Below are positions 38,507 through 58,259 of a DNA stretch of 64,000 nucleotides, piece by piece; position 1 is the stretch's first letter, and each line of letters begins with the position of its first letter. Position numbers and translations under genes: made by a program. The notes under the pieces are model-generated. The model made no database searches. It was not told the DNA's origin and saw nothing but the letters and a program-made list of their open reading frames with translations. The DNA is from Thermospira aquatica (GTDB lineage Bacteria > Spirochaetota > Brevinematia > Brevinematales > Thermospiraceae). The stretch lies in NCBI RefSeq assembly GCF_023525255.1, contig NZ_CP073355.1, forward strand, positions 62,001 through 126,000, given 5' to 3'.

Positions 38507-39082
38507 CCTGTTACCCTGTTACAGCTGAAAAGAGTCTTTGTTCTTACGTTGTTGCAGTCTGGATTGAAAAGGAAGCTCTTACCTTATCACAATGACAAAA
38601 GGCTCTTCCCTTATCGCAGTTTTGTATTGCTATTACCTTGTTGCAATGGGCTAGGGCTTGCTCTTCCCTTGTTGCAGTCTGGGACAGGGGGATTTGGAGG
38701 ACAGCTATTACTTTGTTGCAGTGAGAAAGAACTACTCTTACTTTGTCACAGTAAGAGAGGGCTTGCTCTTACCATGTTCCAGCGAGATTCTATCAATAAA
38801 GTGACTGTGATAAGGAAAGAGCAGGGATTTTGGAGTTTTCTTTTTTCTCCAAAAGTATCGTCTGGGGATGGTAGTATACTGCTCTTACCTTGTTTCAGTT
38901 TTTATAATTCTGGGGACTGTGAAAAGGTAATAGCTACTCTCAAAAAAAACACGAGGAGGAAATTGGTGAAAGGTTTCACCTGAGAAAAAAGATGCTATTA
39001 CTCTTTTACAGTCTTGGATCAGAGGAAAAACTGTGAAAAAGGAATAGCAAGAACTTTTTTTTTACTGCAACAAGGAAAGAGC
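38507..39082. repeat. Left array of 18-bp repeats (outward-facing), about 15 units
   Basis: Units of consensus CTGCAAYAAGGTAATAGC (common variants CTGYRAYAAGGRAAKAGC) are found at 38540, 38575, 38602, 38629, 38660, 38704, 38734, 38765 and 38881 on the minus strand. Plus-strand units are at 38805, 38917, 39031 and 39065. One more minus-strand unit is at 38994 and a degenerate one at 38507. Start-to-start spacing is mostly 27-44 bp and the spacers are unrelated to each other. Most left-arm units point left, away from the IS1595-like gene. Confidence 0.85.
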
Positions 39083-39249
39083 AGAGGTTTTTTATCCCTT
39101 TTTCCACTTCTCTTTTTTAAGAAAAACACTTTTTTGCCTTTTTCGTCAAGGGAAACGAAAAGTTTTCCAAAAAAACAAAATGAAACAAAAACTTTTAGTT
39201 TTCTATTTGACAGACTCAGGAAACGTTGTGAGAAAGAAAAAACCAGAAC

Positions 39250-40050
39250 CTAAGCGTGGATGGGAAGAATAAGCCCTTCGCTAACCAGTTTTTTCCACGG
39301 GAGAAGCTGGCGACGTTTGCCAAGCCTTCTTAAAAGCTCTTCAAGCCTGGAAGAAACCCCCTCGATGTTAAACCGAAAACAGAATTCATCAAGATAGCGC
39401 TGCATGTGCTTTCGACAACCATAGTGATAGACGTCTTCAAGAAGGTTTTTCAACCCATCGTTAATGTGGGAAAGCCAAGGCGTTCTCTTTTCTACGGGCG
39501 TGTGGCGGAAAAGCTTGCCAAAAAAGTCTGAAAGCCAATCGCTACTCACATCATCCACAAGGTGAATATGAAGTTTAGAAGGGGTATCATCCGCATCAAT
39601 TTCGACAACCTGCATGGGGGAAAAGTTTTTTCTTTGCTTACGTTTGATACCGGAGAGAAAGAAAAAGGTTTTGACAAGCTTTCGGAGGGATTTCGTGTGA
39701 TGGCGAGTGGTAAGCCGCATGAGGCTTCGTAGCTTCTGAAGAAGAAGCCAGCTTGCCTTGTAGCTAATGTGAAGAAGTTGTGAAAGCTTCACCGCATTTA
39801 TCCCCCCATCCTGGCAGACAAGAAACATGGCAGAAAGCCAGATTTTTGGCGAAAGGTGACTTTTTCGCATGATGGACTGGCTTTTTAAGGAAAATTGTCT
39901 GCCACACTTGGGGCACTGATACACGAGCCGGCACGAGAGAAGATGCGCTTTTTCTTTACACCGTGGGCAAATTGCCCCCTCTGGCCAGAGGGCTTTTTCG
40001 AGAATCTGGTAAGATTCTTTTTCTGAGAGTGTGAAAAAATCCTTTTCCAT
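39250..40050 (-). CDS. IS1595-like transposase relative, catalytic residues not recognised
   Basis: 266 residues. N-terminal zinc ribbon (CPRC ... CPKC at about 28-54), then the IS1595-type helix-turn-helix region (MRKSHLSPKIWLSAMFLVCQDGGINAVKLSQLLHISYKASWLLLQKLRSLM). The C-terminal half retains LHIHLVDDVSSDWLSDFF and LSHINDGLKN ... KHMQRYLDEFCFRFN. The segment that should hold the first catalytic Asp (VDExYxGG) reads LVKTFFFLSGIKRK, and the block with the second Asp (TDGWxxY) is missing, so the chain is ~50 residues short. By eye it looks able to bind DNA but not to cut it. The frame is intact. It lies between two oppositely oriented 18-bp repeat arrays and no ordinary terminal inverted repeat was found. 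Confidence 0.7.
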   Translation of the reverse strand: MEKDFFTLSEKESYQILEKALWPEGAICPRCKEKAHLLSCRLVYQCPKCGRQFSLKSQSIMRKSHLSPKIWLSAMFLVCQDGGINAVKLSQLLHISYKASWLLLQKLRSLMRLTTRHHTKSLRKLVKTFFFLSGIKRKQRKNFSPMQVVEIDADDTPSKLHIHLVDDVSSDWLSDFFGKLFRHTPVEKRTPWLSHINDGLKNLLEDVYHYGCRKHMQRYLDEFCFRFNIEGVSSRLEELLRRLGKRRQLLPWKKLVSEGLILPIHA

Positions 40051-40178
40051 GGTTTTCTCCTTAGAGAAATTTTTTCATACTATATATATCGAAAATTTTT
40101 TGTTATAGTTGTTAAAAAAGATGTTTTATATATTTTAAAAGTAAGATCGATGGGGAGATTTTGGGGGTTGAGAAAAAT

Positions 40179-40780
40179 GCTCTTACCTTGTTGCAGTGTG
40201 AACGCAGAGTATAAAACTGTGATACGGGAAGAGCTTGTCCCTTGGTTGCCACTGTAACAGGGAAAGAGCTTTTATGTCCCTCGCATTAACTGTACTATGG
40301 TAAGAGCTAAAATTGTTTTCAGACTGCGAAAAGGTAATAGCTCATGGGCATTTCGTTTCCGCTGGAAAAAGGGAAGAGCTTTTATGTTTTACGCTTTCAC
40401 TGCAATATGGGAATAGCTGCCAGGTTTCCAGACTGCAACACGGTAATAGCAAGTGTTCTCACTGCGATAAGGGAATAGCTCATATACCCTCTCCTTTTTC
40501 CCTGCAATAAGGGAAGAGCTTTTGTCTCCCGAGTCCATACTGCAATAAGGGAAGAGCAAGTTTTTTTCCTGTGATAAGGAAATAGCTTTTGTATTTTTGA
40601 TTCTCATTGCAAAAAGGTAATAGCTAAAGTTTTCTCCTTAACAAGGAAAAACGAGCGACCCTTTACTTTTTACTGTGACATGGTAATAGCCCCCTCCGTT
40701 TTTTCTCACCGCGGAAAGGTAATAGCAACTGTCTATCTCACACCAGTATTCAACCTTTTTTCACTTATAAGGAAACAACA
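40179..40780. repeat. Right array of 18-bp repeats (outward-facing), about 16 units
   Basis: Same consensus as the left array. The first unit (40179) points left. From 40217 on, all units are on the plus strand and point right: 40217, 40252, 40290, 40324, 40362, 40400, 40433, 40462, 40502, 40540, 40569, 40607, 40673 and 40709. Degenerate units are near 40637 and 40762. Start-to-start distances are 29-40 bp. The units at 40502 and 40540 are identical. The array stops just before IS remnant D. Confidence 0.88.
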
Positions 40781-55940: not shown

Positions 55941-56429
55941 GCTGTTACCTTGTTGCAGTGAGGGAGAAGAGGATGTAAGTTTTAGCTATTACTTTGTCGC
56001 AGGAAAAGAGAACTGCTCTTACCTTATCGCAGCAAAAATGTGAGAGAAAAACACTGTGATAAGGAAAGAGCATGGGTTTTAGAGTTTTCTTTTCCCTTCA
56101 AAAGTATCTCCGCAATGGTAGTGGGGACCTTGTTCTTACCCTGTTTCATTTTTTTATTGTGCTCAGGGACGGCTCTTTCCCTCCAACAAGGGAAAAACAA
56201 GGATTTTTCCCTGCAATAAGGTAACATCTTTCATTTTGCATCCTCTCTGCAAAATGGTAAGAACAGAAATTTTTTCCCTGCAAAAAGGTAATAGCTATTA
56301 AAACTTCCTTCTCACTGCAACAAGGAAACAGCCTTCAGGTCCCCACCTTACCTGCAAAATGGTAATAGCCGGAGTTTTTGTACTGCAACAAGGTAATAGC
56401 AAGTTTTCTCACTGCGATAAGGTAATAGC
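55941..56429. repeat. Second array of the 18-bp repeats, no protein gene
   Basis: Minus-strand units at 55941, 55985, 56015 and 56133; plus-strand units at 56054, 56211, 56247, 56278, 56315, 56352, 56383 and 56412; a degenerate unit near 56181. The outward orientation is the same as around the IS1595-like gene. The segment 56049-56150 is clearly related to 38801-38900, including GAGTTTTCTTTT and CAAAAGTAT, so the two loci share ancestry beyond the repeats. The IS1595-like gene is absent here. Confidence 0.85.
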
Positions 56430-56452: not shown

Positions 56453-56805
56453 GATTGTCTCAAGAAAATGGTGTCTGGTCATACGACAACCTCGCTATGA
56501 ATATTTTCTGTTGGGTATGAGTGTTCCTCAGAGGAGAGCTGAAAAAGTACTCCCAATTCTTTAACTTTTTTTCAAGAACTTCTCGTTTTGGTTCTTAATA
56601 ACATGTAAAGATATTTCTCCGGGGAAGGATAGAGTAAAAGGGGACTTTTAAATCCATTATTCCTTGTTCTTGGCACACGTATAGCTGTAAGTTCGCCAAA
56701 CGCTGTCTGGAATCCCTTTCGTAGAAGCCGTTACCTTTTGTGAAAGGATTGTTCTCCAGGTAAATCTCCCTTTCCTCTTTTAACATCCTCTCGAGTACTT
56801 CCCCC
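56453..56805 (-). mobile_element. IS256-like element, internally deleted remnant
   Basis: Left tip ATTGTCTCAAGAAAATGGTG and the last transposase codons are joined, by a large internal deletion near 56625, to the N-terminal codons (minus strand: EVLERMLKEEREIYLENNPFTKGNGFYERD). As at 24245, a copy of the rve-type IS sits at the N-terminal side. Confidence 0.8.
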
Positions 56806-56812
56806 GTTGCGT

Positions 56813-58259
56813 CAAATAAAAAAGTACTCGAAATTCGAATCATTGCCTCATAAAAAAAAGTACTCAAAAATTCCATACAGTTTCCTCCAAATTTTTGTTT
56901 TTTACATTCTTTTTCTTTTGAAGGCTGAAAAGTTTTCTCTGGCAAGCTGTAATTTTTTGTCTTAGGTGAAACAAATCGAGAGCCTTATAAAGCCTTGTTA
57001 GGCGTTCCTTTTGTGCCTCACTTACATAAGAGCTTTCTAAAAGCCGCTGGTAGGGAGTTTTAATATCATCATGCTTCTTTTGCACCTTGCTTCCGATTCT
57101 CTTTTTCTCTGTCATTTTCATAACCGGTTGAAAAAAGTTGGTATACAGTCGAAGATAGGCATAGAGTTGGTTCAAGTAGTAGACTTCTTCCTCGGTATCG
57201 TAGCGGAAGTATCCAACATTCTGGCGGACTATGGAATAGTTTTTCTGCTCAACGTAGCAGTTATCATTGGAACGGGAGCTTCTCCCCTTGTAAATTTTAT
57301 CTGGTGCTTCACACCAATCGCGTAGAGGATGATTAATAAATTCAGCACCGGTATCAGAATCAATTCCCCGTAACTCAAAAGGAAGTCTTCTTTGGACTTT
57401 TTCTATGGCTTCTCTTACCCATTTTGAAGCTTTGTTTTTGATTGCCACAAGCTCTGTCCAACCGCTCCAAACATCCACCATATTTAATGTTTGAGCAAAA
57501 TCTCCCCGGCTATTTCCTCCCTCATGGGCTACCAGATCAATCTCCATGAACCCAGGGCAATTTTCATCCCACTCTGCCCACGTGCGTATAGCTATTTGTT
57601 GCTTTAATAGCGTTCCAGGTTTTGTGCCTTTTCGTCCTTTTATCTCAAGCTTTTTACGCTCATGTTTCAAAAGTCGGTCAATACTTGAAGCACTTATATG
57701 GCGCAAGTTTTCTATAGCCTGTGGAGAACCGTGGAGATGTCCGTTTGCTAAGAGATTATCTAAAACTTTATTTAAAATTGGCTTTAAACGTTTGCCACAC
57801 ATGTAGTTTTCAATTTCCCAGACCTTTTTTAGAAGTTTTAGTTCCTCTTCGCCGAATTTTTTCTTTCTGCCAGGTCTTTTGCCCTTTTTGGCTATGTCGG
57901 CTTTAAGGTAATTTTTCTTGCCTAAATATATGGTTTTTCCGTGCTGCCTCAAGAGTCTGGCGGCATAGTTTCGGTTTTTTAAACCTGTTATCCTCACAAA
58001 ATAATCCAGTATCTCCATTTTTTCCTTTTTGCTGGCTTTTTGATATTGTTTTGCCGTTTCCCTGTAAATAGGTCTCCTTTCAAACATCGCCACCCCAATT
58101 CCGGTTGGCGAGCTTGTCGAGCCACGGTTGGCGAGCTTGTCGAGCCACGGTTGGCGAGCTTGTCGAGCCATGAACTGGATTATTTTACACAAATTTAAAG
58201 TACTTTTTTATTTTGCAATAGCGTTCCCTTTTCGAGTACTTTTATTATGAAGCAATTCG
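56813..58259 (-). mobile_element. Insertion sequence copy H (nearly intact)
   Basis: 1447 bp with both ends and three 24-bp units (58102-58171). Left flank CTTCC and right flank AAAAG differ, so the original target duplication is lost. The right end is five bases before the -35 box of the next promoter. Confidence 0.9.
56864..58087 (-). CDS. DDE (rve-type) transposase, copy H
   Basis: 407 residues from the ATG at 58087 (MFERRPIYRE). The frame is also open upstream through the 24-bp units to 58192 (in-frame WLDKLANRG peptides), probably without being translated. Catalytic residues are present, but the stretch after the second Asp reads WCEAPDKIYKGRSS where copy C has WCEKNQIKFTRGRSS. Two compensating indels have therefore shifted about ten residues inside the core, and activity is doubtful. 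Confidence 0.8.
   Translation of the reverse strand: MFERRPIYRETAKQYQKASKKEKMEILDYFVRITGLKNRNYAARLLRQHGKTIYLGKKNYLKADIAKKGKRPGRKKKFGEEELKLLKKVWEIENYMCGKRLKPILNKVLDNLLANGHLHGSPQAIENLRHISASSIDRLLKHERKKLEIKGRKGTKPGTLLKQQIAIRTWAEWDENCPGFMEIDLVAHEGGNSRGDFAQTLNMVDVWSGWTELVAIKNKASKWVREAIEKVQRRLPFELRGIDSDTGAEFINHPLRDWCEAPDKIYKGRSSRSNDNCYVEQKNYSIVRQNVGYFRYDTEEEVYYLNQLYAYLRLYTNFFQPVMKMTEKKRIGSKVQKKHDDIKTPYQRLLESSYVSEAQKERLTRLYKALDLFHLRQKITACQRKLFSLQKKKNVKNKNLEETVWNF

Follow-up and report, generated by a model that had tools for sequence, protein, structure and literature searches.

The stretch of the Thermospira aquatica genome analysed here (64,000 nucleotides, referred to as the window) contains, at 55941-56429, an array of short and polar repeats without a protein gene. 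We consider it probable that this solo array is a gene-less set of binding sites for IS1595-type proteins that are predicted to be catalytically dead and are encoded elsewhere on the chromosome, the two forming a REPIN/RAYT-like two-part system that acts in trans. No description of such a system was found in the literature searched.

The solo array and its repeat unit

The solo array contains 12 units and one degenerate unit of 18 bp each. Matching to CTGYNAYAAGGNAANAGC with at most three mismatches gives three minus-strand units (55941, 55985 and 56015) followed by nine plus-strand units (56054, 56181, 56211, 56247, 56278, 56315, 56352, 56383 and 56412), with the consensus CTGYRAYAAGGKAAKAGC; the degenerate unit (56131-56148) is on the minus strand. 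There are 49 matches in the window as a whole – relative to 5.0 expected in shuffled sequences – and none of 100 shuffles reaches this number. The units are ordered as three minus, an inward '> <' pair that forms a core, and eight plus, and there is no open reading frame of 80 or more codons inside the array. An earlier, sequence-only reading of this DNA had proposed twelve or thirteen units with the same outward polarity around a core, and no protein gene; the count and the absence of a gene hold, and the polarity is correct for the flanking units but not for the core, in which the pair points inwards.

The core (56049-56150), with its inward unit pair and conserved interior, is shared with 38801-38900 and with at least eight other places in the genome. 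The alignment of the two window copies scores 95 (shuffles: mean 16, maximum 25), and the stretch between the two units aligned alone scores 48 (shuffle maximum 26), such that the relationship proposed earlier is well above chance with or without the units. The left part of the array (55941-56071) matches the sequence immediately beyond the right end of a gene-bearing cassette in three copies, with a unit spacing of 44/30/39 compared to 44/30/38 and about 86% identity over about 150 bp, and its left edge aligns with the unit at the right end of the cassette. The locus is therefore like one flank of the cassette loci, not like both ends joined.

Two other mobile elements lie nearby. Outside the array, 56454-56558 is about 83% identical to the end of an IS256-family element with approximately 28 copies, whose transposase matches the Transposase_mut profile (E 3e-89). 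This remnant was correctly noted at both window loci, but it lies to the right of the solo array and to the left of the array at 38.5 kb, in the same orientation, and because it is on opposite sides it is not a shared boundary. A multicopy rve-type insertion element (56804-58192, minus strand) has an edge that at several loci comes close to an array, frequently to about 100 bp or less, possibly reflecting a target preference.

The window covers positions 62001-126000 of a genome that is a single 2.5-Mb contig, in which there are 472 strict unit matches, and none with a reversed-pattern control. Among 47 loci examined there are 671 units in 71 clusters of up to 28 units, and the clusters tend to read '<<< >< >>>'. 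The majority of units are tandem rather than paired, with a typical tandem spacing of 30-38 bp, outward pairs spaced at 36-40 bp, and inward pairs at either 78-80 or 88-90 bp. Only 28 of 669 units are inside open reading frames of at least 150 codons, although such reading frames cover 53% of the loci; the units are intergenic, clustered and polar. Measured on preselected units, the positions CTG--A-A-GG-AA-AGC are well conserved. The arrays are mosaic and vary in unit number, and neighbouring units are identical in just 6 of 279 distinct neighbour pairs. A CRISPR-like array was considered and rejected because the stretches between units recur from array to array. The array sequence matches no Rfam family, and PADLOC gives one weak, non-specific match.

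Inverted unit pairs fold well. Their arms are less alike than shuffled ones (0.34 versus 0.45), with no covariation towards complementarity, and there are no perfect palindromes among 68 distinct outward pairs. In 29 of these 68 '<>' pairs (e.g. window 56015-56071) the arms are CTGCAA and CTGTGA, and arms in this genome show an excess of differences that are G-U compatible on one strand; a founder effect, avoidance of palindromes, or a strand-specific G-U hairpin could each account for the arm asymmetry. A coding region (L094:127-806), possibly a polymorphic-toxin-like C-terminal region as judged by eye, is duplicated beside arrays at several loci (L053, L065, L093 and L100).

The cassette and its protein

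The related locus consists of a left array (38507-39048) that includes the core at 38801-38900, a cassette of about 1.15 kb (39064-40197, minus strand), and a right array with 14 plus-strand units (40217-40726). The cassette is bounded by inward units at 39065-39082 (>) and 40179-40196 (<), and contains a minus-strand gene (39250-40050) coding for a 266-residue derivative of the IS1595 family, with a zinc ribbon, a helix-turn-helix (HTH), and a truncated RNase H core lacking D-D-N. Similar genes are present at 16 loci, and 13 copies are intact with at least 94% protein identity to the window copy. The smallest block common to loci with different flanks extends from -149 to +998, counted from the start codon, with an inward unit at either end, and the 18-bp array unit is therefore the terminal inverted repeat of the cassette.

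The cassette flanks come in a few variants, and the pairing of left with right variants differs from copy to copy, suggesting that copies have recombined or undergone gene conversion with one another. In one copy (L055) an unrelated left flank begins at a GG in the middle of the unit, GG being the usual first bases of Merlin-type ends (PMC8101967). There are no target duplications beyond chance at the edges of arrays, cassettes or hairpins, none of the 16 cassettes has an 8-bp target-site duplication, and no outer boundary common to array copies was found. The end-to-end comparison of further copies proposed in the sequence-only reading thus revealed neither common boundaries nor target duplications, although the core it described does recur among them.

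In several homologs the interval from the end unit to the gene contains a promoter-like block (TTGACA, TTTTTCGAT and a TATAAT-like sequence). It is present in the window at 40060-40130, with ATTTTCGAT in place of TTTTTCGAT, and upstream of the gene in L083, L086 and L087; its conservation at this position across the genus extends to cases with a different array repeat, and it is possibly an operator.

The window protein matches Zn_ribbon_IS1595 at its N-terminus (36.5 bits, cut-off 25.4), but its match to DDE_Tnp_IS1595 is limited to profile positions 113-153 of 153 (24.4 bits, below the cut-off of 27), and the NCBIfam IS1595 model scores 64.3 bits, below its cut-off of 75. The Pfam DDE_Tnp_IS1595 profile is covered from 1-153 in an intact control and not at all in a sister-species protein. 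In an alignment with 15 intact relatives, where the two D residues are invariant and the N nearly so, all three catalytic residues (D, D and N) appear to be replaced or deleted in the window protein and its dead relatives, as read from alignments of divergent proteins. A structure model of the window protein has three RNase H core strands followed by helices, the next two core strands being missing; the protein also has a helical DNA-binding region (HTH). The AF2 model of the intact control has a pLDDT of 67, which is too low to be of use. Searches of the PDB with the window protein gave just short zinc-finger-like matches by sequence, and retroviral integrases without significance by fold (best E 0.23). 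No complete match to DDE_Tnp_IS1595 was found elsewhere in the genome.

The 13 intact copies (78 pairs) have a dN/dS of 0.11 at a dS of 0.25, and each of the four parts of the protein has a low ratio. Judged from sequence, the cassette gene has lost its DDN active site yet appears to be under purifying selection.

Related species and more distant homologs

Two further genomes in the genus, which were deposited under Brevinematales, encode proteins that are 40-45% identical and also without the active site. One of these has 149 strict matches to its cognate unit, most of them in lone outward pairs with a spacing of 35-37 bp, such that inverted doublets dominate in the sister genome and arrays in Thermospira aquatica. 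The other sister genome has a second and more distant protein type (type B) amid a different repeat, which matches 33 times in this genome with its full gene, 17 times in one with a gene fragment, and 3 times (versus 5 for the control) where the gene is absent. Repeat type thus follows protein type across species. Copies of the type-B repeat (GTTCTCTCCTTTTCTCA in inverted orientation at a distance of about 67 bp; L087) are concentrated on the contig of its protein gene (G001:C29 75004-123539).

Positions are also shared between species. A gene beside 7 of 20 sister unit loci, and beside none of 20 control loci, is at least 50% identical to a gene beside an array of this genome (Fisher p ~0.008), and in at least five of the seven orthologous sites the side on which the repeat flanks this gene – as judged from coordinates – is the same in both species. 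A gene-bearing locus also corresponds between the two species, with an 81% identical neighbour and the same arrangement. At three pairs of loci (L059/L240, L061/L234 and L058/L248) this genome has an array with a cassette, and the sister has the hairpin alone. Because repeats occupy orthologous sites with or without a cassette, the repeats are old and inherited in place, and the cassette comes or goes. For the solo array itself, the two upstream flanking genes compared have no convincing orthologs in the sister genomes.

Dead IS1595-like genes are also found in Paenibacillus, and of 11 such loci inspected 10 (L118, L120, L121, L122, L124, L129, L134, L135, L137 and L141) have tandem repeats no more than about 1.5 kb away; these differ in sequence and in period (9-53 bp). 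The L121 array is found nowhere else in its genome. A 10-bp tandem repeat at L124:4468-4547 contains GCTCTTACC, the same half-site as in the spirochaete unit, which may be chance. No arrays were found at the Desulfobulbales dead clade, and over all homologs the association of dead proteins with nearby repeats is not significant (Fisher p = 0.24), which leaves the parallel in Paenibacillus as no more than a lead. By host group (Brevinematales, Paenibacillus and Desulfobulbales), the dead proteins fall into separate clades, and their joint grouping is weakly supported. That those of all three groups are the protein half of an undescribed array-binding class, each with its own adjacent or dispersed array and a role in the cell, for instance in organising the chromosome or silencing genes, is a tentative and rather doubtful proposal.

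Alternative explanations and known systems

The sequence-only reading had offered two interpretations of the solo array. In one, the array is a MITE-like copy that has lost its interior and is mobilised in trans by the cassette transposase, and it does resemble MITEs in being a gene-less sequence with the same ends as a gene-bearing cassette, with cores and flanks common to several loci, and with cassettes and solo arrays both multicopy. We think this unlikely, as the cassette transposase has no recognisable active site and no intact IS1595 transposase was found in the genome, and, unlike MITEs, the arrays lack target duplications, a fixed length and fixed outer ends. The similarity to a single cassette flank and the comparable repeats at orthologous sister-species sites also count against it. 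The absence of both target duplications and a complete IS1595 transposase domain elsewhere makes cut-and-paste movement of the solo array unlikely in general. The other interpretation, in which one and the same DNA-binding protein acts in trans and has its second site here, is supported by the many genomic copies and the pairing of repeat type with protein type, and the predicted binding is the basis of the explanation we prefer.

It also seems improbable that the array is a scar, comparable to a solo LTR, left when a cassette was lost by recombination of flanking units, for which no function in trans is needed. The three locus pairs with array and cassette in one species and hairpin alone in the other, and the alignment of the array's left edge with the unit at the cassette right end, are as expected of a scar, but the units, albeit preselected, are still well conserved, and the cassette gene is kept under apparent purifying selection. 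That selection, and repeats that track protein type, similarly oppose a neutral growth in which old transposon ends multiplied, as in a satellite, through replication slippage and recombination. Mosaic arrays and variable unit numbers agree with such growth, but the rarity of identical neighbours argues against simple slippage, and we regard it as very unlikely. We give still less credence to an RNA or single-strand hairpin element (a REPIN proper, a terminator or an RNA-stability element) with inverted pairs selected for folding. The pairs do fold well, and their G-U compatible differences are in keeping with this, but the arms show no covariation, perfect palindromes and an Rfam family are absent, and most units are tandem and unpaired. 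That the arms are not kept complementary makes a site bound by protein as double-stranded DNA more likely than a folded strand.

REPIN/RAYT systems consist of REP doublets and a REP-associated tyrosine transposase, an IS200/IS605-type Y1 (HuH) enzyme (PMC3116915). As in these, a transposase-derived gene has on its flanks a short repeat that is also scattered through intergenic DNA, is often in inverted pairs, and has a type specific to the protein type. However, the protein described here is an IS1595-type DDE derivative with its active site apparently lost and is unrelated to RAYT, there are up to 16 gene copies and long tandem arrays, and, unlike in REPINs, there are no compensatory changes that keep the hairpin. 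The IS1595 family (ISXO2-like) are relatives of eukaryotic Merlin (PMC8101967, PMC12561309), and the cassette resembles its elements in the N-terminal zinc ribbon and C-terminal tail of the transposase domain, in having one gene between inverted repeats (the 18-bp units at -149 and +998), and in an inner unit half that begins with GG. It differs in that the catalytic D-D-N/E/H and two core strands are missing, there are no 8-bp target duplications, and the terminal repeats are multiplied into arrays. With the RAYT enzyme type absent, and the IS1595 active site and target duplications absent, we class the system as a transposase-derived protein with dispersed cognate sites.

The ends of Tn7 and Mu each contain several sites for their transposase. 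The arrays are likewise several polar sites for one transposase-like protein, but with dozens of sites, many arrays without an element, and a protein predicted not to be catalytic.

In the two-part system that we prefer, the protein would use its zinc ribbon and HTH to bind the units, presumably as oligomers on tandem and inverted sites, and solo arrays would be multi-site docking platforms in trans. The arrays probably bridge or silence DNA and autoregulate the protein, which we consider more likely than mere perpetuation of the sites, and array growth and exchange of flanks would occur by homologous recombination or gene conversion rather than cut-and-paste. The many near-identical copies look like ordinary proliferation, and count against this explanation.

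These observations suggest that a transposase has been turned into a genome-wide DNA-binding system. If so, it would be a transposase that no longer cuts DNA and whose landing sites have been kept and multiplied, a counterpart of REPIN/RAYT that is based on a DDE protein, has hundreds of sites in each genome and conserves their positions between species. Since each protein type is paired with a repeat type, straightforward binding assays could test the idea directly, and Paenibacillus, with tandem arrays next to its homologs, would provide a model that can be cultivated.
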